From NCBI GenBank assembly GCA_001045525.1, contig LDWW01000026.1, positions 1 through 50,638 on the forward strand: DNA of 50,638 nt. Direction: 5' to 3'. The notes under the pieces were generated by a model. That model was not told the origin of the DNA and searched no databases. It worked only from the letters and a program-made list of their open reading frames with translations. This document shows, one piece after another, positions 29,349 through 45,366 of this stretch. Within the stretch, counting starts at the first letter, position 1, and each line of letters opens with the position of its first letter. Made by a program: the position numbers and the translations under genes. Source of the stretch: Chitinispirillum alkaliphilum. GTDB taxonomy: Bacteria; Fibrobacterota; Chitinivibrionia; Chitinivibrionales; Chitinispirillaceae.

Positions 29349-31066
29349 TTGAAAAGCATTTATTCATTTTCTCTTCAGGATCAGCAAGCTGTGCAAAACC
29401 TCCCCACTCTCAGCAAACTTTCCCTTTTATGGTTTATAATTCTGTTGATTTTTTCCTGCAACACTAAGAACGTCACAGGACAAACCTTTACTCCCCAGGC
29501 AAACACCCCTCAAAACAGCTTCTTTCAGGTGCAGGGAAATCAAATTCTTAGTCCGGACGGATCACCATTTCAGATCATGGGTGTGGCTTTTGGCAATCAG
29601 GTCTGGCACCCCCCCCCTCACCCTCCACCCAACCATCACGACCGTATAGATTATGGACGGGCTGCCGCAATGGGATTTAACACCGTTCGATTTTACCTTG
29701 ACTATCGTCTTTTTGAAGAGGACTACGCTCCTTATCTGTATAAGGAGAGCGGCTTTGAGTGGATAGATCAGAATATTCAATGGGCAAAGGAGCATGGCAT
29801 CTCTCTTATCCTGAACATGCATTACCCTCAGGGTGGTTTTCAGTCCCTTGAGAGAGGTGGAGCACTCTGGAGTCAACGAAGTAATCAGAAGCGTTTGATT
29901 GCACGAAGGTACAAAAACAAGCCTCAGATACTTGGGTTTGATCTGGTAAACGAACCGGTGGTAACAGAGAGTATAGATCAGTGGATTAATCTTGCAAATG
30001 AGATAGTAACCAGCATCCGAGAGGTCAATCCCAATCACATAACCATAATTGAGCGCCTGAATGCAAACCTAAGTCGTACCAATGATCCCTGGAACCCCAA
30101 CCAGAACGGGGAAATGAATTTTTTCCTTATAGATGATCCCAATCTAATATATCAGTTTCATTTTACTCACCCTTCGAATTTACTCACCAGAATGCTCCCT
30201 AAGTTCCGTCAACTGTCGGTATAACAAATTCCTGGCCTGATGAAGAAAGAATTGAAGCACCCGGGGGAATGAACTGGAGCTGGGCTACGTTTGAAAATCC
30301 TGCTGCTGCAAGTGGCACTACAGACTGGACCTGGTATGAGGGTGTTCCTGTAAGCATTACAGATGTTACACATGTAATCGGCCGCCCGGCTCTTCAGGGA
30401 AATGATATCGGAGAAGGAACCGTGTGGTTTGACGATATCACACTGGTAGAAAGGGATGCAAGTGGGAATGAAACCGGCCAATGGAGCTGGGATTATAACA
30501 GAAATGATGATTTTTATTACTGGTCCGATCCACAACAGGGGTCAGGTACATGGAGCGCAACTGAGGGACGCGAGGGGTCAGGTTGCTGGAAAATCACTGG
30601 TTCAGGCCGTGATGCAGTACTATCTGACGGACTGAACATGATCATGCTTAAAAGGGGGCATTCCTACACTATGAGCGGCTGGATGAAAACCGAAAATCTC
30701 CCCCCTGCAGCACAGGCCCGTATAAGACTTGATTTTTATAGCTCTGATGGAGAATTATACAAGTGGAACAGGGAGTATCTTGAAGCAGAACTTGATCGGT
30801 ATCTTGAATTTGGCCGCCAACATAATGTCCCTCTTTACCTTGGGGAGTTTGGATGCATTACAGGGGCTTTTGAGGAGAACCGGGGTGGGCTTATATGGGT
30901 AGAGCAGATGCTCCAACTCTGTGAGGAAAAGGGTATTCATTATAATTATCATACCTGGCATGAAACTGCGTTTGGAATTTATCAGAATCCACCCCATCTG
31001 CCGTTTGATCCATCCACGGGGAATCAGGAGCTCATTAATCTTTTTACACGGATGCAGAGGAGATAG
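29349..31066 (+). pseudogene. GH5-family glucanase (cellulase-type) lipoprotein gene, frameshifted, with an inserted binding-module-like domain
   Basis: The first part (to 30224 in its own frame) has a signal peptide with lipobox LIFSC (Cys37), then a GH5 barrel with FYLDYRLFEEDYAPY, LILNMHYPQGG and the acid/base Glu202 in FDLVNEPVV. At about 30170 the barrel sequence moves to another frame (FEFTHQNAP), meets a TAA at 30200, and continues open to 31066. That part contains a beta-rich, Trp-rich insertion of about 170 residues (WSWATFENPAAASG, WFDDITLVERD, WKITGSGRD), then returns to the barrel with the nucleophile glutamate at 30845 (LYLGEFGCI) and YHTWHETAFGIY. Both catalytic residues exist but no single frame holds both. 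A TTG at 29349 is the only usable start. Sequencing error is the main alternative to a pseudogene. Confidence 0.85.
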
Positions 31067-31431: not shown

Positions 31432-33339
31432 ATGCAACACTGTAGGTATATCACATTTTCTATCCTTTTTTCTGCTCTATTATGTTTAATCCATGCAACC
31501 GATTACCAGCCCTGGAGTCAGCAACCCCCGGGAGGTCTGTCGGTCGAGCAGGTACCTATGTTTGTCACCATATCATGGGATGATAATGCCCGGTCCGGAG
31601 ATGGAGCTCTGGACACCGGAAGTTATTACACTTCAATGAGATGGATTCTTGAGTTTATGCGCGACAGGAAAAATCCTCCCGGACTTGGCAATGCTGCCAC
31701 CTATGACGGATCACCTGCACGGGCATCTTTTTACAACAACTCCACCTATATGTCTGCAGGTGCAGTTGATGCTCCCAATCTGGTAAAAAAAATCTATCAT
31801 GAAGCCTGGGTAGATGGCCATGAGGTCGCAAACCACACCCATAGCCACGGGCATGGGGGAAATTTTTCCGTAGACAGATGGATCCAAGAAATACAGCTCT
31901 GTGAAGACTGGCATCTTAAACCGGTACCAGGTCCTCTGGTAGGACCACATGATATGACTCCAAATCAGGGTGCTGGGATTCCTGAAGCGGATTTCGTAGG
32001 ATTCAGAGCACCTTTCCTTGAATACAATGACAATATGTTTACCGCATTAAGAGCACTTGGCTACCTATATGATACATCGATTGAGGAAGGATACCAGTAT
32101 GATCAGGATGGAACCAATTTCGCCTGGCCATACACAATGGATTACGGTTCCCCGGGACACGACGTGTTTGTAGGGTGGGGCGATAGAGACCCTGTTGGCA
32201 ACCATCCAGGACTATGGCAGTTTCCTATTCACTGCCAGATTGTACCCGATGATGCTTCAGTTGCAAACTATGGGCTTGACTACTCACTGCGCCAGGCTAT
32301 GAGTGAGAGGGTCAGTTGGGACTGGAATACAGAATCAGGAAAAGTCACCGGCTTTGATTACAACAAATTTGTTCAGTTCAGCATGAACGAAGATGAGGTG
32401 CTGGCGGTTCTGAAACATACACTGCACCGCAGGCTTCAGGGTAACAGAGCACCTCTTAACCTCGGTGCCCATACCCAATATTACCACAGAACGTATAGTG
32501 GATTCAGAAATACCGATTACAGAAAAGCGATGGAAGTGTGGGAAAAATTTATCGACTATGCACTTACTATCCCTGAAGTCAGACTGGTCACTGCAAGGGA
32601 TGTGATTGAGTGGTGCAGAAATCCCGTAGCCCTCGAAGATCTCCAAAACCGGGTAATCGTCTCCATTTTACCAGACTCGATCCCTGTATATCAGGATGTG
32701 GACATCCCCGACTGGGATGAGAATGCAACTTATGGCAAAGATGATGAAGTGGTGTGTAACAATCATATCTGGTTTTCCTCATCATGGTACATAGCCCCCG
32801 GAGAGCACCCCGGTGACTATGAGGGATGGATCGATATGGGACCAACAGGCGGCTATAAAGTCACCAGAGCAGGGACAGTAGACCATGAAGGTACCCACCT
32901 CTTTCCTACCGGATCTGATGTCTCCTTTAACTTCACTCCCCACAGCGGCTATTCAGTAGCACAGGTGTTGGTTAATGGAGAGGAGATTTCTCCAACTCAG
33001 CAGTACAGCATTTCATCAATAAATGAAAACTATTCCATTGCAGTCAGGTTCAGCTCCGGCGAAACCAATGTGGTAGCTGCTTCTCCCACTATTTCACAAA
33101 GAGATATAAGAATCAGCACAATATCAAGAGAGCGTCTGTCTGTTACAGTTCCTCAGCAGGGTGTATGGCAGATCGGCTTATACAATGCAAACGGAAGATC
33201 AATAGGCAGTGTGTCTCAGAGGCTGAGAGCCGGTGAAAATGTAGTTGATTTACCTCAAAATATCAGTTCTCAGCTTGTCCTGCTACGTATACAGGGCCCG
33301 CAAAACACGACTAAACAGATGAGACTGATGATACCCTGA
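31432..33339 (+). CDS. Exported polysaccharide deacetylase with CBM5/12-like module and tail domain, 635 aa
   Basis: A signal peptide (residues 1-22) is followed by a NodB-type deacetylase domain: motif 1 TISWDDN (Asp50, Asp51), motif 2 NHTHSHG (His135, His139 for the metal), motif 3 FRAPFLEYND, and a late LNLGAHTQYYH. The substrate may be chitin, chitooligosaccharide or acetylated xylan. About residues 420-470 resemble a CBM5/12 chitin/cellulose-binding module (DWDENATYGKDDEVVCNNHI, WFSSSWYIAPGEHPG). Next is an InlB/BACON-like beta repeat (GYKVTRAGTVDHEGTHLFPT...) and, at the end, a sorting-tail-like beta domain (WQIGLYNANGRSIGSVSQRL). Chitin-directed activity is favoured because of the binding module. 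The gene follows the broken GH5 gene in the same direction but has its own ribosome site. Confidence 0.85.
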   Translation: MQHCRYITFSILFSALLCLIHATDYQPWSQQPPGGLSVEQVPMFVTISWDDNARSGDGALDTGSYYTSMRWILEFMRDRKNPPGLGNAATYDGSPARASFYNNSTYMSAGAVDAPNLVKKIYHEAWVDGHEVANHTHSHGHGGNFSVDRWIQEIQLCEDWHLKPVPGPLVGPHDMTPNQGAGIPEADFVGFRAPFLEYNDNMFTALRALGYLYDTSIEEGYQYDQDGTNFAWPYTMDYGSPGHDVFVGWGDRDPVGNHPGLWQFPIHCQIVPDDASVANYGLDYSLRQAMSERVSWDWNTESGKVTGFDYNKFVQFSMNEDEVLAVLKHTLHRRLQGNRAPLNLGAHTQYYHRTYSGFRNTDYRKAMEVWEKFIDYALTIPEVRLVTARDVIEWCRNPVALEDLQNRVIVSILPDSIPVYQDVDIPDWDENATYGKDDEVVCNNHIWFSSSWYIAPGEHPGDYEGWIDMGPTGGYKVTRAGTVDHEGTHLFPTGSDVSFNFTPHSGYSVAQVLVNGEEISPTQQYSISSINENYSIAVRFSSGETNVVAASPTISQRDIRISTISRERLSVTVPQQGVWQIGLYNANGRSIGSVSQRLRAGENVVDLPQNISSQLVLLRIQGPQNTTKQMRLMIP

Positions 33340-33354
33340 ATACCCTCATACAAT

Positions 33355-33391
33355 GCTCTGTTCACCTTCGGGTGACAGAGCTTTTCCTCTC
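33355..33391 (+). terminator. Terminator of the deacetylase gene
   Basis: GCTCTGTTCACC and GGTGACAGAGC form a stem with one bulge capped by a TTCG tetraloop, then TTTTCC, 16 bases after the stop codon. Confidence 0.8.
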
Positions 33392-33803: not shown

Positions 33804-36800
33804 GTGGGTAAAATATTGCTGATTTTGATTTTTCTTTTAGTAGGTGTTGCACACAGTTTTAATTTTATGCTGTCAGCCGATATTGGTCCACAACCTTCAT
33901 TCCGCGGCCATAAAGATGAAGAGGTTTCTTCTGATTCTGTTAGAAGTATTATCATTTCACACTTAGAGTCGTTGGAATTTCACACTTCAACTACCGAATC
34001 CGAGCAACATGTAATCGGCCTCAGAAGAGATACCGGTTATAGACTTTACTCACTGCTCTCTTGGGCCGCTTCGCTTGGTGATACTTCACTTTGTGCCCTG
34101 ATACTCGAACAAGGCGCAAAGTTAAATGTTTTTGAATGCGAGCGCAACGCACCCCTTCGTGTTGCGGCAGCTGCAGGACATGAAGATTGTGCAATTTTTC
34201 TCATTAAAAAAGGCGCACCGATAGACGCCGTCGATTTTTCCGGAAAGAATATCCTCCATTACGCAGCACAAACAGGTTCAATGGAGCTTCTGAGAACTTC
34301 TTTACAGGCTGGTGTTGACCCGAACTTCCGCACCAAAAATGGCAGAACAGCATTGATGCTGGCTGCATTAAATGGACACCTCGAAATACTTGACACACTC
34401 ATTTATTATGGTGCTGATCCCAACCTGATCGATAATTTTGGAGCTAATTCACTTCTGCTTGCATTGTTGAATGATAACGCTGATTGTATGTCGTATCTGA
34501 GCCAACTGGGGTTAAGTTTTCCGTCACATATCAGTGGGGACCAAATTCTTTGGTTTATTTCACACACTGGGACTCTGGGCCAGTTTAAACGCCTTATTGA
34601 ATTAGATGCTAAAGGTGAACTGGAATTTACCAGGACCATGAACAGAGATGGAGGAGCAGTATTCAGGGCTTTGCATAATCCTGACCCTGAAATAGTGAAA
34701 TACCTGTTGGAGAACAATTTTGAATTTGATTTCGAGTGGATAGAGAGCATCAGTTTGAGGAGAACAGTCGGCGATCTCATCAATTCTGGCAATTTTGGAA
34801 ATCTTAAACTGCTCTTTGAGCACGGATTTAATCCATCAACTATTGACCATCAGTCGAAATCTTTACTATATACCGCTGTAAAGAGTAATAAGTACGATAT
34901 CGCGAGGCTGATCCTCGAATATGGAGTAAACCCCAATAGAATTGAAGGTGTTGCCCAGTTGTTCAGTACGCCTCAAACCACATCTCTTATACAGGCTGTA
35001 ACAAACAATAATCTTGAAATGGTAACCCTGCTTTGCGAATATGGTGCTGATGTAAATTTGGTTCCTGAGCACGGTGAAAGTGCCTTGCATATTGCTGCTA
35101 GAGAAGGCTATTCCGGGGTTATGCGTGTTCTTATCGAACATGGCGCAGATCTTTTTTCAAGCCACGATTTCTGGAACAACACTCCATTTACATACGCACT
35201 TCGCTCCGGCAACCAGGAAACAGTTTTACTACTTGAAAATGCAGGGGCTCTTGATACTGCGAGGATTGACCTGGAAAGAGAGCTGGCAAATGCAGCAGGA
35301 AATTCGAATACCGACATAATCGACTACCTGCTTCAAAAAGGAGTGGACCCACACACCTCTGCCTTTTCAGAAGATATTCTGCTGGTACGTGCGGTCAGTG
35401 CAGGACATATAGATGTTCTGCATCAGTTTCTGGAATTGGGACTTAATCCCAATAATCCAAGTTTTGATGACCCTATTTTATACAAGATTCCTTACGACAG
35501 CACAGATATCCTTTCTCTTCTGGTGAAATATGGTGCAGATATCCATAACACCAGAAGAGGTACTACGATTCTTGAATATGCCACATTCGGTCAAAGTTAT
35601 GAGTTTATCAAATATCTTCTGGACACAGGAGAATGGGATTGTTCTGTGTTGGAGAAGGCCCTCATCAATTGCCTGAAAAGAGGCAGATATGATGTGGTTG
35701 AGAGGTTAAAAAAAACCGGGGTTGAAATTTCCCGTAACTGGGACAGGAATGAATTGATCGAAATTTTTGACATAGCATTAACAGAAGGAAATACCAATCT
35801 GGTAAAAAAAATGTGGCGGAGAATGAAAATCAGGCCAGACTACGCACTGGAAGCATCGGTAAAACATGGTCATTACCAAATTACACAGTTTCTGATCCGC
35901 AGAGGAGCTGATGTAAACTCTTATGGAAAAAAACATCTCCAAATTCCACCTTTTCTACAAGCTGTAGAAAATGATGATATTGAAACTGCACGCCTTCTAA
36001 TTAATAGTGGTGCCCGTGTTGATACCGTTCATAATGGATACAATGCTCTTTACAGGGCAGTATCAAATGGTAATAAAGAAATTGTAAAATTGCTGCTTGC
36101 TTACGGAGTATGCAAATATTCTTCAGATAATGAGGGTACCCATCTTAAAGAAGCATTGAAACAACGTGATGATCGGGAGATTTTTGATATACTGGGATTT
36201 GACTATGAAATAATCATGAGTGAAACTGAGCAATATGTAAACAATGATCCAACTTTACGACCTGAAGAACTTTTGTGTGATGATCTTTCCGGATACTACA
36301 ACCTATACAACATTCTTAAAAAAAAGACATTAGATGCTTATGGAGCCGATCTTAATACCATTTGTTATGGCTCTTCAGTATATGATATCATCATGAATTC
36401 AGGTTACTATGAAGCGATCAAGCTGATTCTAAAAGATGGTGCAGATCCCAACATTATAAATCTAAGGTCAAGAAACAGAGGCACTCCTCTTTTAACTGCG
36501 ATACAAAATAACAATAAACTAATCGCTTTTCTTCTACTTGAATACGGGGCTGATCCCAATATTGCAAACAGGCACGGTGAGACTCCCTTAATGTTTGCTG
36601 TTCAAAATGGATTTGTGGATCTTGCTGCAACCCTTATAGAAGCTGGTGCAGATGTGTTTGCTGTTTCAACTCCACGAGACAACAGGGAAGAAATCAACGT
36701 CGCTTCTGTTGCTGAAAACAAGATTCAGTTTTTGCCGATTCTGAACAATTCCGGTTTACAAGATATCAGTTTAAACCAATTCTATAACGCGGTTGTTTCC

Positions 36801-39296
36801 GGGAAATTAAGAAGTATTACAGAACATGTCCCACTTTTTAAGGAAAGAAACAATCCTGAATACAAAAATTCCCAAGCGCTCTGGTGGGCATCCAGTCCAG
36901 TTGTGGTTAAAAAGCTGTTGGAATTAGGATATGATCCTGACATAAGAAACAAAGAAGGTATAACCTATTTTATGTACACTGTTCAAAAGGGACGGTTTAA
37001 AACTGCAGAACTTCTCCTCAGGCACGGTGCAGATATCAATGCATTTTCCCACGATACCGACAGATATTCCAGGTTAAAAGGCAATGCTCTTATGCAGGCT
37101 GTTAAATCAAGGAAATACACTACCGTTAGCTGGCTCCTTAAAAACGGAGCTGATCCAAATCTTGAAAACAAAGAGGACGATTTTCACACAGCTCTGTCAT
37201 ACGCAGTCCAGAGGGGAAATGAGCAAATCGCCTCGCTTTTATTGGAGTATGGTGCGAAAATACCGGTAGAAACAGAAAAAATCCATTCGCTCATACAACG
37301 TGCTATCAGTAATGATGTGTTAAGTATAGTACAGGCTATTTTTGAAGATGAACTTTTGCATTCAACAGCTTTTAAAAAACGCTCTTCTTCTGATTCTCCT
37401 GATGCTCGCAATCAGATGAATATTTTCTCCAGACCCTCCAGGTGTTACTATACAGAGCACCTCACGAATGCAGTCTCCCAAATCAGACCACGCCATGTAT
37501 TTCTTATTATCGAGCATGGAGCTGATTCATTGCATTCAAACATAAGTGCTATGCCTCTGAGGAAAGCCCTTGAGAAACATAGACATTCAAGAGACAAAGA
37601 TTCCATAAACCAGATTATATCCAGGCTTCTTATAGAGGGTATCTTTTCAACAGATGCAATTGAGGATATAGAAAACGCACTTGTATGGGCAGTAAATGAA
37701 AATTTTCCAGAAGCTGTCCAAGCAGTCTTAAAACGCATGGAAAATACAGAGCATTTTAAACAAACAATTTCCTCCATGCTCAAGGTTTCAATTGCAACTG
37801 GCAACGTAAAGCTTACAAATCAAATGTTGGATTATGTTTTTACCGAAGTATTCACTTTTGAAAAAGAAGATACATTAAACCTGTTTCACACCGCTATCCG
37901 ATATGGTGATGCAAATACATTCAAGCGGCTTATTGACAATGGGTTTGACGCTCTTCTTGTTATGGAGAATGGAGAAAATCTGCTATGGAAAACAAAATTC
38001 AGTCCTTTTTATTGCAGAGTTAACCAAAAACAAACAACATCCGACAGCTCAGGTATGAGATCCATTATTACCGATCTTTGTGACATGGGAATTAATATAA
38101 ACGCACAGAATAATGAAGGCAAAACCGCCCTTCACCAGGCCTGCTATAACCGCGATTATGAAATGATTAAAACCTTAGTAGAGAACGGAGCACGCACAGA
38201 TATTCAGGACAATCAAGGGATGACCCCATTGACAAAGGCAACAAAAAGAGGGTTTCATGAACCGGTTCATTTACTTGCAACAAATGAATCAGTCGTTAAT
38301 ATTCAGGATTCTCTTGGAAATACAGCTATTCACTATGCAACCCAGAGATATTCAATAAGTTTAGATTTGATTGAGACATTACTTCAATTGGGTGCAGATT
38401 ACAGAATCACCAACCATAATGGAAATACATTATTAACAAACCTCATAGAAAGCGCTCAGGAACCACTGCTTCGCTGGGTCATTGAGCAAACCGATCGTTT
38501 TCCTGAAGCAAAAGAACTGACAGAAGCGGCACTTGTAAACTCAGCACGTCGCTGCAGAACCGAATCAATCCAATTTCTGCTGGATAATAACATTTCAGTT
38601 CAAAGTCGTGATTCATCAGGACGGTCTGTACTTAATGCAGCCGCTGCAAATTGCTGGTCTGAAATTATATCATTGCTTCTCTCCGAAGGCGCGAGGGTCA
38701 ATGAGGCAGATGCTCTCGGTGTCACTCCCCTGCTTTCATCTGTTTACCACAACAGAAACACAGAAGTTACCGAGCTTCTGCTTAATGCTGATGCTGATCC
38801 CAACAGAGCTGAAGATTTCTGGGGTCAAACACCTCTAATGATTGCATCATCTCACCGTCATTCAGAAGAAATTACAACAATGCTTCTTAGAAAAGGAGCG
38901 GATATGAATGCACGGGATTTCTATGGTTGGTCTCCTTTGGTTTATGCCATCCGCGCCGGAAATCACGGTGTATCTAAAATTCTTATCGAAAATGGGGCTG
39001 ATGTTAATGCCACAGATCTCTATGGGTGGACTCCTCTTTTTCATGCTGTATCATCCCGATCTGATGAAATCATTGGTCTTCTCCTGAAATCTGGTGCTGA
39101 AGTCAACATTACAAACGACTCTGGTATTCCTATTCTGCACCATGCAGCTAAAACCGGAAACACCGATGCACTGAGATTATTGCTTGATAGAGGAGCTGAT
39201 ATTCTACTTACTGACAACAAAAACAGGACAATATTTGACTACGCAGAAGATATAAACGATGATATTTTCTTATTTCTTAACAGTAACTACCGGTGA
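33804..39296 (+). CDS. Giant exported ankyrin-repeat protein, 1830 aa
   Basis: I place the start at GTG 33804 because AAGGA lies eight bases upstream and the protein then opens with a clean signal peptide (GKILLILIFLLVGVAHSFNF); a TTG at 33741 has no ribosome site and would bury it. Almost the whole mature protein is ankyrin repeats, by length roughly 45-50 units of about 33-37 residues. They are imperfect in the middle and closest to consensus near the start and end (GRTALMLAALNGHLEILDTL, GETPLMFAVQNGFVDLAATL, GWSPLVYAIRAGNHGVSKIL). No protease, nuclease or other catalytic domain is visible. It should be a periplasmic or surface solenoid that binds protein partners. Six bases separate it from a second ankyrin gene, so they form an operon. 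Confidence 0.93.
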   Translation: MGKILLILIFLLVGVAHSFNFMLSADIGPQPSFRGHKDEEVSSDSVRSIIISHLESLEFHTSTTESEQHVIGLRRDTGYRLYSLLSWAASLGDTSLCALILEQGAKLNVFECERNAPLRVAAAAGHEDCAIFLIKKGAPIDAVDFSGKNILHYAAQTGSMELLRTSLQAGVDPNFRTKNGRTALMLAALNGHLEILDTLIYYGADPNLIDNFGANSLLLALLNDNADCMSYLSQLGLSFPSHISGDQILWFISHTGTLGQFKRLIELDAKGELEFTRTMNRDGGAVFRALHNPDPEIVKYLLENNFEFDFEWIESISLRRTVGDLINSGNFGNLKLLFEHGFNPSTIDHQSKSLLYTAVKSNKYDIARLILEYGVNPNRIEGVAQLFSTPQTTSLIQAVTNNNLEMVTLLCEYGADVNLVPEHGESALHIAAREGYSGVMRVLIEHGADLFSSHDFWNNTPFTYALRSGNQETVLLLENAGALDTARIDLERELANAAGNSNTDIIDYLLQKGVDPHTSAFSEDILLVRAVSAGHIDVLHQFLELGLNPNNPSFDDPILYKIPYDSTDILSLLVKYGADIHNTRRGTTILEYATFGQSYEFIKYLLDTGEWDCSVLEKALINCLKRGRYDVVERLKKTGVEISRNWDRNELIEIFDIALTEGNTNLVKKMWRRMKIRPDYALEASVKHGHYQITQFLIRRGADVNSYGKKHLQIPPFLQAVENDDIETARLLINSGARVDTVHNGYNALYRAVSNGNKEIVKLLLAYGVCKYSSDNEGTHLKEALKQRDDREIFDILGFDYEIIMSETEQYVNNDPTLRPEELLCDDLSGYYNLYNILKKKTLDAYGADLNTICYGSSVYDIIMNSGYYEAIKLILKDGADPNIINLRSRNRGTPLLTAIQNNNKLIAFLLLEYGADPNIANRHGETPLMFAVQNGFVDLAATLIEAGADVFAVSTPRDNREEINVASVAENKIQFLPILNNSGLQDISLNQFYNAVVSGKLRSITEHVPLFKERNNPEYKNSQALWWASSPVVVKKLLELGYDPDIRNKEGITYFMYTVQKGRFKTAELLLRHGADINAFSHDTDRYSRLKGNALMQAVKSRKYTTVSWLLKNGADPNLENKEDDFHTALSYAVQRGNEQIASLLLEYGAKIPVETEKIHSLIQRAISNDVLSIVQAIFEDELLHSTAFKKRSSSDSPDARNQMNIFSRPSRCYYTEHLTNAVSQIRPRHVFLIIEHGADSLHSNISAMPLRKALEKHRHSRDKDSINQIISRLLIEGIFSTDAIEDIENALVWAVNENFPEAVQAVLKRMENTEHFKQTISSMLKVSIATGNVKLTNQMLDYVFTEVFTFEKEDTLNLFHTAIRYGDANTFKRLIDNGFDALLVMENGENLLWKTKFSPFYCRVNQKQTTSDSSGMRSIITDLCDMGININAQNNEGKTALHQACYNRDYEMIKTLVENGARTDIQDNQGMTPLTKATKRGFHEPVHLLATNESVVNIQDSLGNTAIHYATQRYSISLDLIETLLQLGADYRITNHNGNTLLTNLIESAQEPLLRWVIEQTDRFPEAKELTEAALVNSARRCRTESIQFLLDNNISVQSRDSSGRSVLNAAAANCWSEIISLLLSEGARVNEADALGVTPLLSSVYHNRNTEVTELLLNADADPNRAEDFWGQTPLMIASSHRHSEEITTMLLRKGADMNARDFYGWSPLVYAIRAGNHGVSKILIENGADVNATDLYGWTPLFHAVSSRSDEIIGLLLKSGAEVNITNDSGIPILHHAAKTGNTDALRLLLDRGADILLTDNKNRTIFDYAEDINDDIFLFLNSNYR

Positions 39297-39302
39297 TATT
39301 CT

Positions 39303-41366
39303 ATGTTAAAAAACAACCTGTTCAATTTACTTTCCATTTGCACTGCTTCTGTGATATTTACTTCAGGCTGTGTTTCAGTAAAAAGAGACTATTCTACAAC
39401 ACTTCCCGATACCCGTCTCAACTGTATGCATAGAATACTTCTCCATGCCGCAGAAGAAAATCATCATGAAATTGTTGCTGAACTACTGAAAAAAGGTGTT
39501 CCATCGATTCTCCCCGACCAAAGGCAACGCAGAAATCCCAATTCAGCGTTTATCTCAGCGGTGATGAATGGGAGTGTAGATGCTGTTGAAGAGTTACTTT
39601 CATTCGGCATTGACATAAGAGAATGGAAAGCCGTTAAATCCCTTGATATTGCAATGGAAAGTAATAATTCCACATTGTTTACACTACTTTTAGACAGTAT
39701 CCCGGAGGAAATTTTTAAGGAACAGGGATCTGTTACATTAAAAAACGCTATAGTGAGAAGAGATATACAGTTTGTATCACTACTGCTGCAACACGCCAGG
39801 ATGGAACAGATTAGAAAAGATGTTGAATATATCCTCTCTGCTATACGCCCCAGAAACATAAATTCATTTACCAATAAATCAGCTCCTAATCTTACCTCCA
39901 TGGAGAATGATACAAAAATTGTAGAAATGCTTCTCAAGACGGGCTTTCCCGCAGAACCTGCTATACAGGACAGTTTAGATACGAGCAATAAGACCATTCC
40001 ACCACTGATAATGGCATGTAAAGAAAAGAGATCTGGTATTGTAAAAGCATTACTTCGTGCCGGAGTTGATGTTAACAGAAGACATACATTGTCTTCGGGC
40101 TACAGCACAACAGCTCTGCTTGAAGCGGTTGGAAGCGGTTGTGAACAATGTGTCCGCAAACTAATTGAATCTGGGGCCGATATCCAAACCCCCAACCACA
40201 ATGGCCTTACTCCACTAATATTGTCGAGCCAAAAAGGGTATTACACCATTACACAACTCCTTATATCTGCTGATGCAGAGCTGGAACACAAATACCGGGA
40301 AGAAAACAGGCCGGAAATGAGTGCCCTGATGTATGCAGCATTGAATGGAAATGAAAAATGTTTTAAACTGCTGATTGATGCAGGTGCAGATACTTACATT
40401 TCCCAAGCCGTAAAACCAAGCATTCTGTTTTTAGCTGCTTCAGGTAAAAACAAAGAAATTATTGATCTGATATTGGATATGGATGTAGACATTGCTGCAG
40501 AAATTGACAGGGATCAATCAGCAATAACTGTTGCAAGTTCCTCTGGACACTACTCATTAGTCAAAGCCTTGCTTGAACATGGTGCTGATCCCAACAGTAA
40601 TCATCCCGAAGGTTGTTGCCCGCCTCTTATGGAGGCGTCCTTTAACGGGGACTACAAGAATGTGGAATTGCTGGTAGAATACGGAGCTGATATACATTTC
40701 AGATCTTCTTCTAAGAATAGGAGATGCCACACACCTCTGGAATGTGCTCTGTTAAGCGGAAATGCTGAAGTCGTTGAGAAGCTCCTTGATTATGGTTGCA
40801 GCCTGGACAGTGTTCAAAAAGTTTACGTTTCTAACTCTTACGAGATAAACCCTTTTATGATTGCCCGAGTTGACCCAACGGGTGAAATTGTCTCTGTGCT
40901 TGTAGAGGAGGCAAGAAAACAGAATGCGGAAAGCTGGAACGACAGTGTCCGGATTTTATTCCACTACGCTATTTCAAAAAACCTGAACCATTTCTTCGCA
41001 CTTATCAACTCAGAAGTACCTTTAGATCTTATATACCATGATGGATACACTCTACTTCACGGAGCTGCCGGGGTTGCAAATGCCGCGCTTTGTGAATATC
41101 TCCTCCTTAACGGAGCGGATGTCAATGCTGAAAATGATTCAGGAATTACACCGCTTATGTGGCATCTGTTCAGCCCTGTCGGTAGTCTTTGTGTAACAAC
41201 AATTCTAACCCTTTTGGAATATGGTGCAAAAATAGATTATGATCTCATCGAACACAGAGATGCATTAGAGATCGAAGAAGTACAATTAAAGACCCGTGGA
41301 GATGTAATAACATTTGTACAAACAATTTTACCTAATTTACAACTAATACATCAGGATTATTATTAA
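39303..41366 (+). CDS. Ankyrin-repeat lipoprotein, 687 aa
   Basis: The signal peptide ends in the lipobox FTSGC, making Cys23 the likely lipid-anchored residue. The mature protein is a solenoid of about 18 ankyrin-like repeats; clear units include GLTPLILSSQKGYYTITQLL, MSALMYAALNGNEKCFKLLI and CPPLMEASFNGDYKNVELLV. No catalytic domain is seen. Only six bases separate it from the giant ankyrin gene and 92 bases from the next exported protein gene. The two solenoids share consensus phrases such as HGADPN and LLEYGA, which suggests a common origin by duplication. Its anchor would place it on the inner or outer membrane facing the same compartment as the larger protein. Confidence 0.93.
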   Translation: MLKNNLFNLLSICTASVIFTSGCVSVKRDYSTTLPDTRLNCMHRILLHAAEENHHEIVAELLKKGVPSILPDQRQRRNPNSAFISAVMNGSVDAVEELLSFGIDIREWKAVKSLDIAMESNNSTLFTLLLDSIPEEIFKEQGSVTLKNAIVRRDIQFVSLLLQHARMEQIRKDVEYILSAIRPRNINSFTNKSAPNLTSMENDTKIVEMLLKTGFPAEPAIQDSLDTSNKTIPPLIMACKEKRSGIVKALLRAGVDVNRRHTLSSGYSTTALLEAVGSGCEQCVRKLIESGADIQTPNHNGLTPLILSSQKGYYTITQLLISADAELEHKYREENRPEMSALMYAALNGNEKCFKLLIDAGADTYISQAVKPSILFLAASGKNKEIIDLILDMDVDIAAEIDRDQSAITVASSSGHYSLVKALLEHGADPNSNHPEGCCPPLMEASFNGDYKNVELLVEYGADIHFRSSSKNRRCHTPLECALLSGNAEVVEKLLDYGCSLDSVQKVYVSNSYEINPFMIARVDPTGEIVSVLVEEARKQNAESWNDSVRILFHYAISKNLNHFFALINSEVPLDLIYHDGYTLLHGAAGVANAALCEYLLLNGADVNAENDSGITPLMWHLFSPVGSLCVTTILTLLEYGAKIDYDLIEHRDALEIEEVQLKTRGDVITFVQTILPNLQLIHQDYY

Positions 41367-41458
41367 AATTGGGAGATTTCAGTACAAAAACACCAAGACG
41401 CACTAATATTGTTTATTAGGCTCAGTTTTTCCCGACTAAAAGAACAGGATGTAAGGAA

Positions 41459-43363
41459 ATGACAAAATTCATTCTTTTGATTCTTTCTGTTGCAAGCCTT
41501 TGTGTTGCAGAAAAACAGTATTGTATCGAACCAAAAATCAATGTCGGCGACACTATACATGTTGCTTACACTATGTATACAACACAGAGAAACGTATCAC
41601 AAAAGGTGGAGAACTCCATAAATTTTACTATTTATGTGAAAGAGCCACATAGTGAGGGCTACAGGATTTATTCCAAACTCGATTCAGTGGCTATGGATTT
41701 ACCAACCATATTAGGAGGCACAAGAAGGATCAATACAGCCTGGGATCTTGACACTATGGATAATGACATTTACGACGAGAAATATCTTTTCACAGTATTT
41801 TTCAAGACATTAACACAGACCCCATTCACAATGCTCATGGATGAACAACTTAATATAATCAGTGTTGAAGAACAGGATAGCTTTAAAGAGCAATTTATCG
41901 AAAAATTAAAATCTAATCTTGAACTGAATTGCTCTGAAGGTAAAAAATTCGTATCAGATTTGGTTCACTCAGTTTTTGACAATGAAGAAATATTTGACCT
42001 TTTCAAAACACCTCAAAGCAGCAATTTCAAAGGAAAGGTCCGGTTAAACGAGGTATGGGAAAGTAGCGTTGAAGAAAAGATCGGTGATTTATCTTTAACC
42101 GTCACAGCACAAAACCGACTTATCGAGGCATCACTATCAACGGTTTTGATTGAGGTTAACGGTACAGTTGAACAAAAGGCATCTTCCGAATCATCAAGTT
42201 ACGGGACTCGTATAAGCGGAACACAACATGGTCGATTTCGAATCGGTGTAAATCATGGATTTCCAATTGCAGCAGAAATATTCCAATATTTAGATGTCCA
42301 GGACGGATCTAACCGCCGATCCAATCTAAAAAACATCATTCAAGTCAACATCCAGAGAAGAAATAATAATAACACCTCAAGCACATTCAGAACAGATTGC
42401 CCTCTTTTGAAAAAAAGCTACAATTTCTTTGGCAACAGATTTCCTGTTATGGCGTTAGTTGACATAGACAGTCAGAGATACTCCATTTACGAAGCCTTTG
42501 CAGATATTAATAGAAACGCCTTTTCCCTTAATCCTCAAACTGCTCCGATTTTGAAAAAAAAGGGAATGAGTCTGATCATGCAGACCAGAGACAGTAGTAA
42601 TTTTGCTCTTGAAAACAATATTAATCGATTCGTAATGCCCGAAACACAAAATTACTTGTTGTACAAATTTCAGAACTCTTCTGCTTTTAGGATCTGGAGC
42701 CATAAATTTTCTTCTCATGAATTATTAAGAATTGATGAACTCTATCACAGAATGATTAATCCTGTATTACTAAACCCCCGCTTTTACACAGTACATTATG
42801 CTGTTCCCAATCTTCGGGCAATCGGTATCCTCAATGATACTTCAATAAACGGGTTCGATACACCTGGCACTGGTAAATGGTTTGCATCAATGAATTCAGA
42901 ACGTAATTTTAACAAATTTGAAAATGCGGGAATAAACCTTTCCTATCTGGAACTCATTTTCGATACAGGGGAAATCGGTGGTATTTATGAACCGGAACGG
43001 ATGAGACGTGTGGAAATGTTTGTAGAAAAGATTAAAACACATCCCACTGTTAATCACGTTTTCTCTGGTGTCGACTTGCTGAGATGGGCTTCCGAAGCGT
43101 TATACGGATGCAGCCATGCTGCCGATTCAAAAACCTCTATCTCACAAGCTCTCATCAAACTCGCTCTTGCTACCATGGATAATACAAATGGGGATTATTA
43201 TTATAACAATACCAGGTACTACTACCACACCTGGTATAATCAGTGGATCTCACCAGGTGCAAAAGCCATGCGTTTAGTTATTTATCTCAATACCTGTGAA
43301 GATGAGGAAATCGCTGCATTGATGAAGGAGTGCCGTTTGTTGTGGGAAAATAGGGCTTTTTGA
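41459..43363 (+). CDS. Exported protein of unknown function, third gene of the ankyrin operon, 634 aa
   Basis: A short signal peptide (KFILLILSVASLCVAEKQYC) leads a two-part protein. Residues about 20-280 are beta-rich and resemble LolA/DUF6263-like folds (GDTIHVAYTMYTTQRN, TPFTMLMDEQLNIISVEEQD). The C-terminal half (about 320-634) is helical with many Tyr, Asn and Arg, including WFASMNSERNFNKFENAG and the aromatic patch NGDYYYNNTRYYYHTWYNQW. No catalytic motif is recognised. AGGAT precedes the ATG. It follows the two ankyrin genes in the same direction, so it is a candidate client or partner of the solenoids in the cell envelope. The family assignment of the N-terminal domain is tentative. 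Confidence 0.8.
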   Translation: MTKFILLILSVASLCVAEKQYCIEPKINVGDTIHVAYTMYTTQRNVSQKVENSINFTIYVKEPHSEGYRIYSKLDSVAMDLPTILGGTRRINTAWDLDTMDNDIYDEKYLFTVFFKTLTQTPFTMLMDEQLNIISVEEQDSFKEQFIEKLKSNLELNCSEGKKFVSDLVHSVFDNEEIFDLFKTPQSSNFKGKVRLNEVWESSVEEKIGDLSLTVTAQNRLIEASLSTVLIEVNGTVEQKASSESSSYGTRISGTQHGRFRIGVNHGFPIAAEIFQYLDVQDGSNRRSNLKNIIQVNIQRRNNNNTSSTFRTDCPLLKKSYNFFGNRFPVMALVDIDSQRYSIYEAFADINRNAFSLNPQTAPILKKKGMSLIMQTRDSSNFALENNINRFVMPETQNYLLYKFQNSSAFRIWSHKFSSHELLRIDELYHRMINPVLLNPRFYTVHYAVPNLRAIGILNDTSINGFDTPGTGKWFASMNSERNFNKFENAGINLSYLELIFDTGEIGGIYEPERMRRVEMFVEKIKTHPTVNHVFSGVDLLRWASEALYGCSHAADSKTSISQALIKLALATMDNTNGDYYYNNTRYYYHTWYNQWISPGAKAMRLVIYLNTCEDEEIAALMKECRLLWENRAF

Positions 43364-43629
43364 TTGGTATCTCTGTCAAATGCTTCACAAACATAAATAT
43401 AACAGTCCAAAACGGACTGAAAGAAAAAAAAATTACCATTTTGAGTTCGTCTATTATTCTAATGTGTACGAAATGTAAATAAGGGTTATTCTTTTGAGTT
43501 AGCAAAACACATTTATTGTTTTTGCTGTGTGTTCACAAAAGCATACCCTTGTTTATATTCAAATATAAAGAAACCTCTGAAAGTAGCCTGATAAAGTACG
43601 CGAAATACATATAGTAAGGAGTTCTTGTA
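43364..43629. other. Intergenic region after the ankyrin operon
   Basis: No gene is seen. CAGTCC/GGACTG (around 43405-43421) forms a short hairpin followed by A-rich sequence, so it would terminate only minus-strand transcripts. AAGGAG precedes the GTG at 43630. Confidence 0.4.
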
Positions 43630-44673
43630 GTGAAAAAAAATCAGATAGTGATCAAAATAATTGCAGTTTGGCTAATAATTGTGCAGTCTTTGTATGCGTC
43701 ACACCTTAAGCCCCAAGCGGTTTCCGGTGCTCTTGAGGCAGGAAATAAGGAAGTGGTCTACCGATCAGCCCTTCCCGATGAAGTGCTTTTTCAGGTAAGA
43801 GTTTCTGTTTCTCCTGATGATCATCTTACATATCTCTTTTTAGGTTCAGTAATTCCGATCGATTCGGCTGACACTGGTCATTATATGCGCATTTACGAAT
43901 ACATTCCGGGAAAGAAGGTACATATTGTTGATTCTATGCCTGTAATGCCATTCAATTCAATTTGGACTATGGAGGAAAACGGGGTTTATTTTGAACACAT
44001 GTTACTCCGAAATTATGACAATCTACATCTCAGTGGTGATACGCTCTTTTATTACCAGGAAATAACTTATCCTGAGTATGATCACCAAACAGATGTGAAA
44101 TTTACCTACGATAGAGAGTATTTCATGTATGTGATCGGCTCAGAGCAAAATCCCATTCAAACAGATGAGGTAAGGTTTCGCAAATCAAACAGAAGACTGA
44201 GTGTTCATTCGTTGGAGAACGTGGCAATTTCTCCCAACGGTAATTACACCTCCCGAAACAATATGTATAATATCTCATTTTTGCTTACATCAGATTATAC
44301 CGAAGATGAAATAATGCAATCGTTTAAGACAAAAGAGGTGTTCGCACTACCAAAATTTACTACAGGTTATGACCTGATCACCTATTTCCCCGGATTCGAA
44401 GAAATGGAGCAGCCTTGTAATGATGAATATGCTCTGTTCGGCGGTATGGACTGGCACCCTGATGGAGATGTGCTTTTTTTTGATAACAGCGGAATCTGTT
44501 ATGCATGTATCTGGATGTTTGATTTGAAGAGTAAAGAGGTAAAGAAACTGGTTGCCGACCATGAAGCGATACACCCTTTCTATTATGAAAAAAAAGGACA
44601 GCAGTATCTTGCGTATGTGCAGGAAAATGAAGTACGCAGATACAGCCTTGGGCCTATTAACAGTCAAAAATAA
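43630..44673 (+). CDS. Exported beta-rich protein of unknown function, 347 aa
   Basis: The GTG start has AAGGAG about nine bases upstream and is followed by a signal peptide (IKIIAVWLIIVQSLYASHLK). The mature protein shows repeated strands with aspartates and tryptophans (VSVSPDDHLTYLFLGSVIP, VAISPNGNYTS, GGMDWHPDGDVLFFDNSGIC), the usual look of a TolB/WD-like beta-propeller with about five to six blades. The near-repeats SPDD, SPNG and HPDG sit at blade-like spacing. No enzymatic residues can be named. It is the fourth exported protein in a row on the plus strand, though separated by 266 bases from the ankyrin operon, so co-transcription is uncertain. Confidence 0.75.
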   Translation: MKKNQIVIKIIAVWLIIVQSLYASHLKPQAVSGALEAGNKEVVYRSALPDEVLFQVRVSVSPDDHLTYLFLGSVIPIDSADTGHYMRIYEYIPGKKVHIVDSMPVMPFNSIWTMEENGVYFEHMLLRNYDNLHLSGDTLFYYQEITYPEYDHQTDVKFTYDREYFMYVIGSEQNPIQTDEVRFRKSNRRLSVHSLENVAISPNGNYTSRNNMYNISFLLTSDYTEDEIMQSFKTKEVFALPKFTTGYDLITYFPGFEEMEQPCNDEYALFGGMDWHPDGDVLFFDNSGICYACIWMFDLKSKEVKKLVADHEAIHPFYYEKKGQQYLAYVQENEVRRYSLGPINSQK

Positions 44674-44845: not shown

Positions 44846-44921
44846 ATGATGAATCTACCCTGTTTCAGTAGACACATATTACCCCTGAATATTTAATTTA
44901 TTGGAAAAGGAGATTGTGTCT

Positions 44922-45366
44922 ATGGGTAACTGCAGGTATGATGAAGAATTTAAGAGTGAAGCAGTTCGCATGGTGGTTGAAGACAAAAGAACTTACCATT
45001 CAGTTGAAAAAGCACTTGGTATTGGCAATGGTGTTTTGAAGGATTGGGTTGAAAAATACCGGAAACGGAACACTATCAATTCTTTTGAGAAAGGCGACCT
45101 CGAAGCCGAAAATCGTGAGTTAAAAAAAAGAGTTGAGCAGATCACAAGGGAACGCGACATATTAAAAAAAAGCAGTGGACATCTTCTCAAAGGACCAGAA
45201 TCCATATACAAGTTCATAGCTGGATACCACACCGAATTTACAGTGCAGGAGATGTGCCGGATACTTAATGTCTCGCAGTGGTTTTTACAAGTGGTTTAAC
45301 CGTAAGCCGTCTTTAAGGGAGTCAGAGAATATTATGCTGACTAAAAAAATCATGAAGTATATATAG
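44922..45366 (+). mobile_element. Decayed IS3-family transposase (orfA plus start of orfB)
   Basis: The ATG at 44922 with AAAGGAG upstream opens a helix-turn-helix domain (CRYDEEFKSEAVRMVVED, HSVEKALGIGNGVLKDWVEK) and leucine zipper (AENRELKKRVEQITRERDIL) typical of IS3 orfA. Instead of ending near the A8 run at 45165-45172, the frame continues straight into orfB-like sequence (ESIYKFIAGYHTEFTVQEMC). It then loses frame at about 45278, where the expected SRSGFYKWFNRKPSLRESEN reads in the next frame to a stop at 45366. The DDE domain is absent. No inverted repeats or target duplication can be confirmed. Confidence 0.85.

Follow-up and report, generated by a model that had tools for sequence, protein, structure and literature searches.

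Two exported ankyrin-repeat proteins encoded ahead of a DUF6263-RND porter domain fusion in Chitinispirillum alkaliphilum

Chitinispirillum alkaliphilum (Fibrobacterota, order Chitinivibrionales) encodes, on one strand and in close succession, a giant exported ankyrin protein (P1), an ankyrin lipoprotein (P2) and an exported protein (P3) that combines DUF6263 with a single porter domain of an RND exporter. The surprising part of the locus is this domain fusion; its ankyrin proteins are of a kind that is common in the phylum and known elsewhere, here in a large version. We tentatively favor a reading in which P1 and P2 would be exported envelope ankyrin scaffolds or chaperones dedicated to a co-transcribed P3, in the way that AnkB serves KatB. 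On present evidence from the genomes searched, the locus appears to be an unusual local arrangement, its gene set being found in no other genome, and not a conserved system. The window is the whole of contig C26 (50638 bp) from a genome of 4.43 Mb in 160 contigs, and "own genome" below refers to other contigs of the same assembly. The features of the locus are as follows.

33355..33381, + strand: terminator-like hairpin GCTCTG(T)TCACC-TTCG-GGTGACAGAGC then TTTT, 3' of the upstream polysaccharide-deacetylase gene (read from the sequence)
33804..39296, + strand: P1, exported ankyrin solenoid of 1830 aa (open reading frame, Shine-Dalgarno sequence, Pfam Ank_2, local repeat profile)
33804..33857, + strand: signal peptide of P1, 18 aa, ending VAHS before FNF (hydropathy 2.37 over 19 residues; by eye)
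39303..41366, + strand: P2, ankyrin lipoprotein of 687 aa, beginning exactly 6 nt past the P1 stop (open reading frame, Pfam Ank_2)
39303..39371, + strand: lipoprotein signal of P2, lipobox FTSG before C, the cysteine being Cys23 (read from the sequence)
41459..43363, + strand: P3, exported protein of 634 aa, DUF6263 plus an RND porter domain free of transmembrane (TM) segments (open reading frame)
41774..42265, + strand: DUF6263 of P3, residues 106-269 (Pfam PF19777, 41.4 bits, E 1.6e-10, cut-off 26.7)
42821..43360, + strand: second periplasmic (porter) domain of an HAE3/MMPL-type RND exporter, P3 residues ~455-634 (HMM, hhalign, alignment, model and Foldseek)
43630..44673, + strand: P4, exported protein of 347 aa with a GTG start, possibly propeller-like; a doubtful member of the set

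All four reading frames are open and lie in the order given by a preliminary description of this DNA, separated by gaps of 6 nt (P1-P2), 92 nt (P2-P3) and 266 nt (P3-P4). Signal peptides were called by eye and from hydropathy. The N-terminus of P1 reads MGKILLILIFLLVGVAHS before FNF, that of P3 reads MTKFILLILSVASLCVA before E, and the signal peptide of P4 ends LYA before S; with the lipobox of P2, these calls uphold the earlier claim that all four proteins are exported. Beyond the N-termini no TM segment was detected in P1, P2, P3 or P4 (maximum 19-residue hydropathy 1.44, 1.44, 0.92 and 1.26, respectively). The start of P1 was placed at GTG 33804, which has AAGGA as a Shine-Dalgarno sequence 8 nt upstream; called mechanically, the reading frame opens at an in-frame TTG (33741). 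P1 is unusual by size, being the biggest ankyrin frame among those listed (1859 codons, followed by 1291, 1195, and 1051).

Repeats in P1 and P2 were counted with a locally built repeat profile in addition to Pfam Ank_2. P1 scored 613.9 bits against Ank_2 (cut-off 27.3) in 23 stretches, and the local profile counted 34 repeats in it, of which 31 scored above 5 bits. The corresponding values for P2 were 201 bits at the same cut-off and 15 repeats, 12 above 5 bits. The gaps between repeats are mostly degenerate ankyrin-like sequence, and P1 would hold about 50 repeat units judged by length alone. Both proteins contain tandem 33-residue repeats above the curated cut-offs of the ankyrin families (PF12796/PF00023). 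They consist nearly entirely of repeats and so offer a binding surface, with no catalytic domain detected by Pfam or the local profile. The open reading frames, the profile search and the repeat counts thus bear out the earlier picture of an 1830-residue ankyrin protein with a signal peptide, followed six bases later by a 687-residue one with a lipobox. A relationship of P1 and P2 to the Dot/Icm ankyrin effectors (AnkX, AnkY, AnkH and others) was rejected, as the best match, AnkY, reached 299.5 bits against an NCBIfam cut-off of 600 and covered repeats only.

The third gene had been described as encoding an exported two-domain protein, and this holds: P3 has a signal peptide, DUF6263 and a second domain, while residues 300-455 were assigned to no family. 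The second domain was recognized with a profile built from 40 HAE3/MMPL-type exporters of relatives, which gave P3 33-36 bits over residues 494-626 (E 2.9e-10 among 2003 sequences). Set against 35.8 bits for P3, the controls gave at most 4.1 bits in 2000 shuffled sequences and 4.4 bits for the best unrelated gene. A sub-profile of diverse exporters alone scored 27 bits and one of the 'GLDY' exporter group 21.6 bits, whereas an orthologue-only sub-profile of the own-genome exporter did not match P3. Because the family profile matches and the orthologue-only one fails, what P3 resembles is the HAE3 set in its diversity. Pairwise searches of P3 against own-genome exporters likewise gave nothing significant, and the porter domain surfaced only with the family profile. 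Comparison of the porter region with the exporters by hhalign gave a probability of 95.7% (E 9.6e-9). In the exporter alignment the likeness begins at P3 residue 455, where ILNDTSINGFD corresponds to ELNDxFxNYFD. This is presumably the position at which the periplasmic domain leaves TM7 in the exporters.

A single-sequence AlphaFold model of P3 (pLDDT 31) was discarded. A model of residues 455-634 from a shallow alignment had a pLDDT of 61, with a core at 70-87, and in a Foldseek search of the PDB it retrieved MmpL4 and MmpL5 first, ranks 1-16 being filled by these together with NPC1-related and Dispatched structures (best E 0.013); this result is partly circular, as the alignment behind the model contained exporter sequences, and it counts as support, not proof. 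When the porter alignment was used to search PDB sequences, it gave matches at chance level only. The membrane part of an RND exporter is absent from P3, which has no MMPL Pfam match and no hydrophobic segment past the signal peptide, and where an exporter has two porter domains P3 has one. P3 therefore differs from the HAE3/MMPL-type exporters (MmpL4, MmpL5 and exporters of ketosynthase clusters), to whose second periplasmic domain its residues 455-634 are homologous, in having no TM helices, a single porter domain and a DUF6263 fused behind a signal peptide.

The porter-domain profile was also run against 61 genomes. Apart from P3 and two shorter frames, all matches lay in transporter-sized frames of ~709-899 codons. 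One of the shorter frames (G030 C367) is cut by a contig end, and in the other (G001 C194) exporter membrane regions were matched as well. P3 is the sole membrane-free exported porter copy seen by sequence search in these 61 genomes. The frames of the other DUF6263 matches in the same genomes measure 265-407 codons, too short to hold a porter domain too, and P3 is likewise the only DUF6263-porter fusion that the searches found there. An exported DUF6263 protein of 314 aa encoded beside an RND operon (G006 C3) resembles the N-terminal half of P3; as a single case this neighbourhood carries no weight. The exporters nearest to the P3 porter domain adjoin ketosynthase, chalcone-synthase-like, and FabA/FabG-like genes, and from this gene content they are probably involved in lipid or polyketide export. 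Such clusters are in keeping with a lipid-like ligand for P3.

Exported ankyrins acting with a partner have been described. AnkB is needed for the activity of KatB in Pseudomonas aeruginosa, and in Leptospira ank-katE forms an operon with a periplasmic catalase (PMC7567364). The ankyrin lipoprotein Tli both neutralizes and activates Tle (PMC10294624), and it cups its partner in the arc of its ankyrin repeats (PMC11470151). The earlier statement that the layout fits no described system is thus too strong, for a periplasmic ankyrin with an operonic partner (PMC7567364) and an ankyrin lipoprotein working with a partner (PMC10294624) are both on record. The C. alkaliphilum locus resembles AnkB-KatB, ank-katE and Cj1386-KatA in that an exported or periplasmic ankyrin gene stands beside a partner, the ankyrin in those systems being needed for partner activity (PMC7567364). 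It also shares the operon-like layout, P1, P2 and P3 lying on the same strand with gaps of 6 and 92 nt and all having export-like N-termini. In contrast to those systems, the partner is not a catalase but a DUF6263 and porter domain protein, P1 is far larger, a further lipid-anchored solenoid (P2) is present, and the case is known from sequence. The likeness to Tli-Tle6 is that of an ankyrin lipoprotein gripping one dedicated partner (PMC10294624, PMC11470151); unlike there, a lipase or toxin domain is absent from P3 and P4 (Pfam, NCBIfam, PADLOC).

In the favored scaffold reading, P1 would be exported to the periplasm in soluble form and P2 would be exported and lipid-anchored to a membrane. 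Both would serve as dedicated binding scaffolds or chaperones for exported P3, encoded 92 nt downstream. P3 itself would be a soluble envelope protein in which DUF6263 has been joined to the porter domain of a lipid-type RND exporter, with loss of the membrane part; its treatment as a separate two-domain client is reasonable. The likely role of the set would be to hold P3, perhaps with a hydrophobic ligand on the porter domain, at the envelope. The export-like N-termini, the repeats, the gene packing, the domain identities, the lack of TM segments and the absence of the set from the other phylum genomes are computational results; the periplasmic location, the co-transcription, the physical contact of P1 and P2 with P3 and the ligand binding are what we infer. 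In a more specific version, the freed porter domain makes P3 a soluble exported hydrophobe-binding module working with giant P1 and lipid-anchored P2; derived from a transporter, it would carry or trap its ligand in the periplasm on a scaffold of ankyrins. This version we consider rather unlikely.

The packing of 6 and 92 nt argues for the scaffold reading, and so does the terminator-like hairpin ahead of P1, which suggests that P1 begins its own transcript; the T run of the hairpin is too short for it to be listed by the terminator scan. Overall, the promoter and terminator scan returned counts equal to those in shuffled sequence, and a promoter-like site near the end of P2 (41336-41363) was no better than chance. 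The recurrence of ankyrin-partner pairs in the phylum, together with the AnkB-KatB and Tli-Tle precedents, also favors a dedicated scaffold or chaperone for P3. In own contig C29 an exported 1195-aa DUF285 (BspA-like) and ankyrin protein overlaps the gene of an exported DUF2330 protein by 4 nt (L067, 3732-8233), so that the genome has another giant exported ankyrin accompanied by an exported protein. In G056 an exported ankyrin is followed ~10 nt on by a Fib_succ_major protein, and in G009 (C401) one is followed by a lipoprotein. Unrelated exported partners directly after exported ankyrins are what would be expected of a scaffold with interchangeable clients. Of the 22 exported ankyrins, however, few have an exported partner directly downstream, and most have none adjacent. 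Against the scaffold reading stands the occurrence of the P1, P2 and P3 set in one genome only in the phylum search.

P3 was found in none of 167 other genomes of the phylum (threshold E 0.01), and no relatives of it were found in GTDB contigs, viral contigs or plasmids by peptide-pattern and tblastn searches, which are sensitive to close homologues. A search of 60 relatives with P4 gave nothing notable beyond a weak propeller match. The co-occurrence of the genes that the preliminary description had set beforehand as the critical point was therefore not found in the phylum genomes searched, and its candidate undescribed envelope system does not stand as a conserved one. Its description of P4 as an exported propeller-like protein stands for export, while the propeller part is weak (PD40-propeller protein, sialidase E 0.83). 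With 266 nt before it, P4 need not share a transcript with P3 and may not belong to the set.

The main alternative is that there is no system at all: P1 and P2 would be a lineage-specific exported ankyrin pair, for example for envelope or surface binding, and P3 and P4 unrelated orphan neighbours. We regard this as possible, if doubtful. Exported ankyrins are common in the phylum and their neighbours vary. Ank_2 was matched in 125 of the 168 genomes, and an export-like N-terminus was present in 22 of the 54 non-redundant ankyrin reading frames inspected (at least 3 repeats), compared with 94 of 280 other frames of 200 or more aa, so that export is about equally frequent for ankyrins and for other proteins here. 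The general view that ankyrins are mostly intracellular is accordingly wrong for this phylum. The uniqueness of the gene set to this genome and the P3-P4 gap also agree with unrelated neighbours, as do the more A+T-rich DNA of P3 and P4 (37-38% GC versus 42-46% in the flanks) and a transposase remnant just past P4. This remnant (44901-45320), seen by eye directly downstream of P4, is IS3-type and orfA-like, with 132 aa before it is broken. The spacing of P1, P2 and P3 on one strand, with all three apparently exported, and the recurrence of comparable ankyrin and exported-partner pairs speak against the absence of any system. If P3 binds nothing and P1 and P2 do not bind P3, the locus would be an ordinary lineage-specific cluster.

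A conflict module is improbable; in it, P3 or P4 would be a toxin that is exported, and P2 and/or P1 would act in the manner of Tli, conferring immunity or activating the toxin. Ankyrin immunity proteins are known, both Imm-ank (PMC3482391) and the Tli lipoprotein (PMC10294624), and a fast turnover would account for the narrow distribution. However, P3 and P4 have ordinary Sec signals and carry no toxin or lipase domain in Pfam, NCBIfam or PADLOC, and an immunity protein of 1830 aa would be unusual. The suggestion of a defence complex was likewise not borne out: PADLOC and NCBIfam matched repeats only, the NCBIfam scores being below cut-offs. The anti-phage ankyrin systems MZA and PDC-M72 were rejected, as their PADLOC matches were repeat stretches, none fell in P3 or P4, and MzaA was below its NCBIfam cut-off.

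A surface apparatus for binding prey or substrate, with P1 released or displayed outside, P2 as its anchor and adhesion to polysaccharide or cells, is quite improbable. It would agree with the carbohydrate genes nearby (GH94, GH5-like, polysaccharide deacetylase) and with the exported DUF285-ankyrin fusion in the own genome. However, no sorting or carbohydrate-binding domain was found in P1 to P4 by Pfam, and the hairpin after the deacetylase gene separates the CAZyme genes from P1. We also know of no precedent for an adhesion role of a porter domain. The last alternative, that P3 is a decaying chimera formed when a piece of an exporter gene was fused by rearrangement, with no selected function, is very improbable: its presence in a single genome, the single porter domain without its membrane part, the low GC and the nearby transposase remnant would fit, but the frame is intact over 634 codons with a signal peptide, the domain boundaries coincide with the point where TM7 ends, and the domain retains its hydrophobic core as well as the ILND..NGFD motif.

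Apart from AnkB and Tli, exported ankyrins have received little study in the literature searched, and in the Fibrobacterota they are frequent, some standing ahead of varied exported partners. Under the scaffold reading, the locus would be a concrete case for periplasmic ankyrins as dedicated scaffolds, and P3 a case for an RND porter domain acting as a soluble carrier without its transporter.

Other observations were made in the flanks. A GH5 cellulase match and a CBM-like C-terminal open reading frame lie 44 nt apart in different frames at 29349-31066, probably a frameshifted gene or an assembly error. The exported polysaccharide-deacetylase-like family to which 31432-33339 belongs is expanded, with 16 own-genome matches, and at that threshold is absent from most relatives searched. 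Synteny around the upstream deacetylase in relatives gave paralogue-level matches of 41-47% only and no informative empty site.

Several further ankyrin arrangements were seen in the phylum. In six loci (L069, L072, L073, L077, L079, L080) an exported protein or lipoprotein of ~168 aa, with a SPOR domain in L069, is followed, sometimes after a cNMP-binding protein, by an exported ankyrin of ~425 aa, and the cluster is conserved among relatives. These ankyrins resemble P1 and P2 in having a signal peptide and repeats, and differ from them in size, in having 8-11 repeats and in their other, conserved neighbourhood. Both the own genome and G001, a genome of the same genus, encode a cytoplasmic ankyrin of 216 aa paired with an exported one of ~345 aa (L061, 5406-7157; L068, 9151-11099). 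An ankyrin gene in own contig C49 is split into two frames (L065, 5257-6227). In own contig C50 several small exported proteins and lipoproteins are encoded in a row, one of them an ankyrin protein of 240 aa (L066, 2525-9860). With an M23-peptidase protein and a weak match to peptidoglycan-binding sequence beside it, this row is a possible conflict locus. Ankyrins of ~940 aa with 20-23 repeats and no signal peptide (L165, L167, L168, L172, L174) are encoded after a protein of ~550-730 aa; they were seen in several genomes, all from one family of the phylum.
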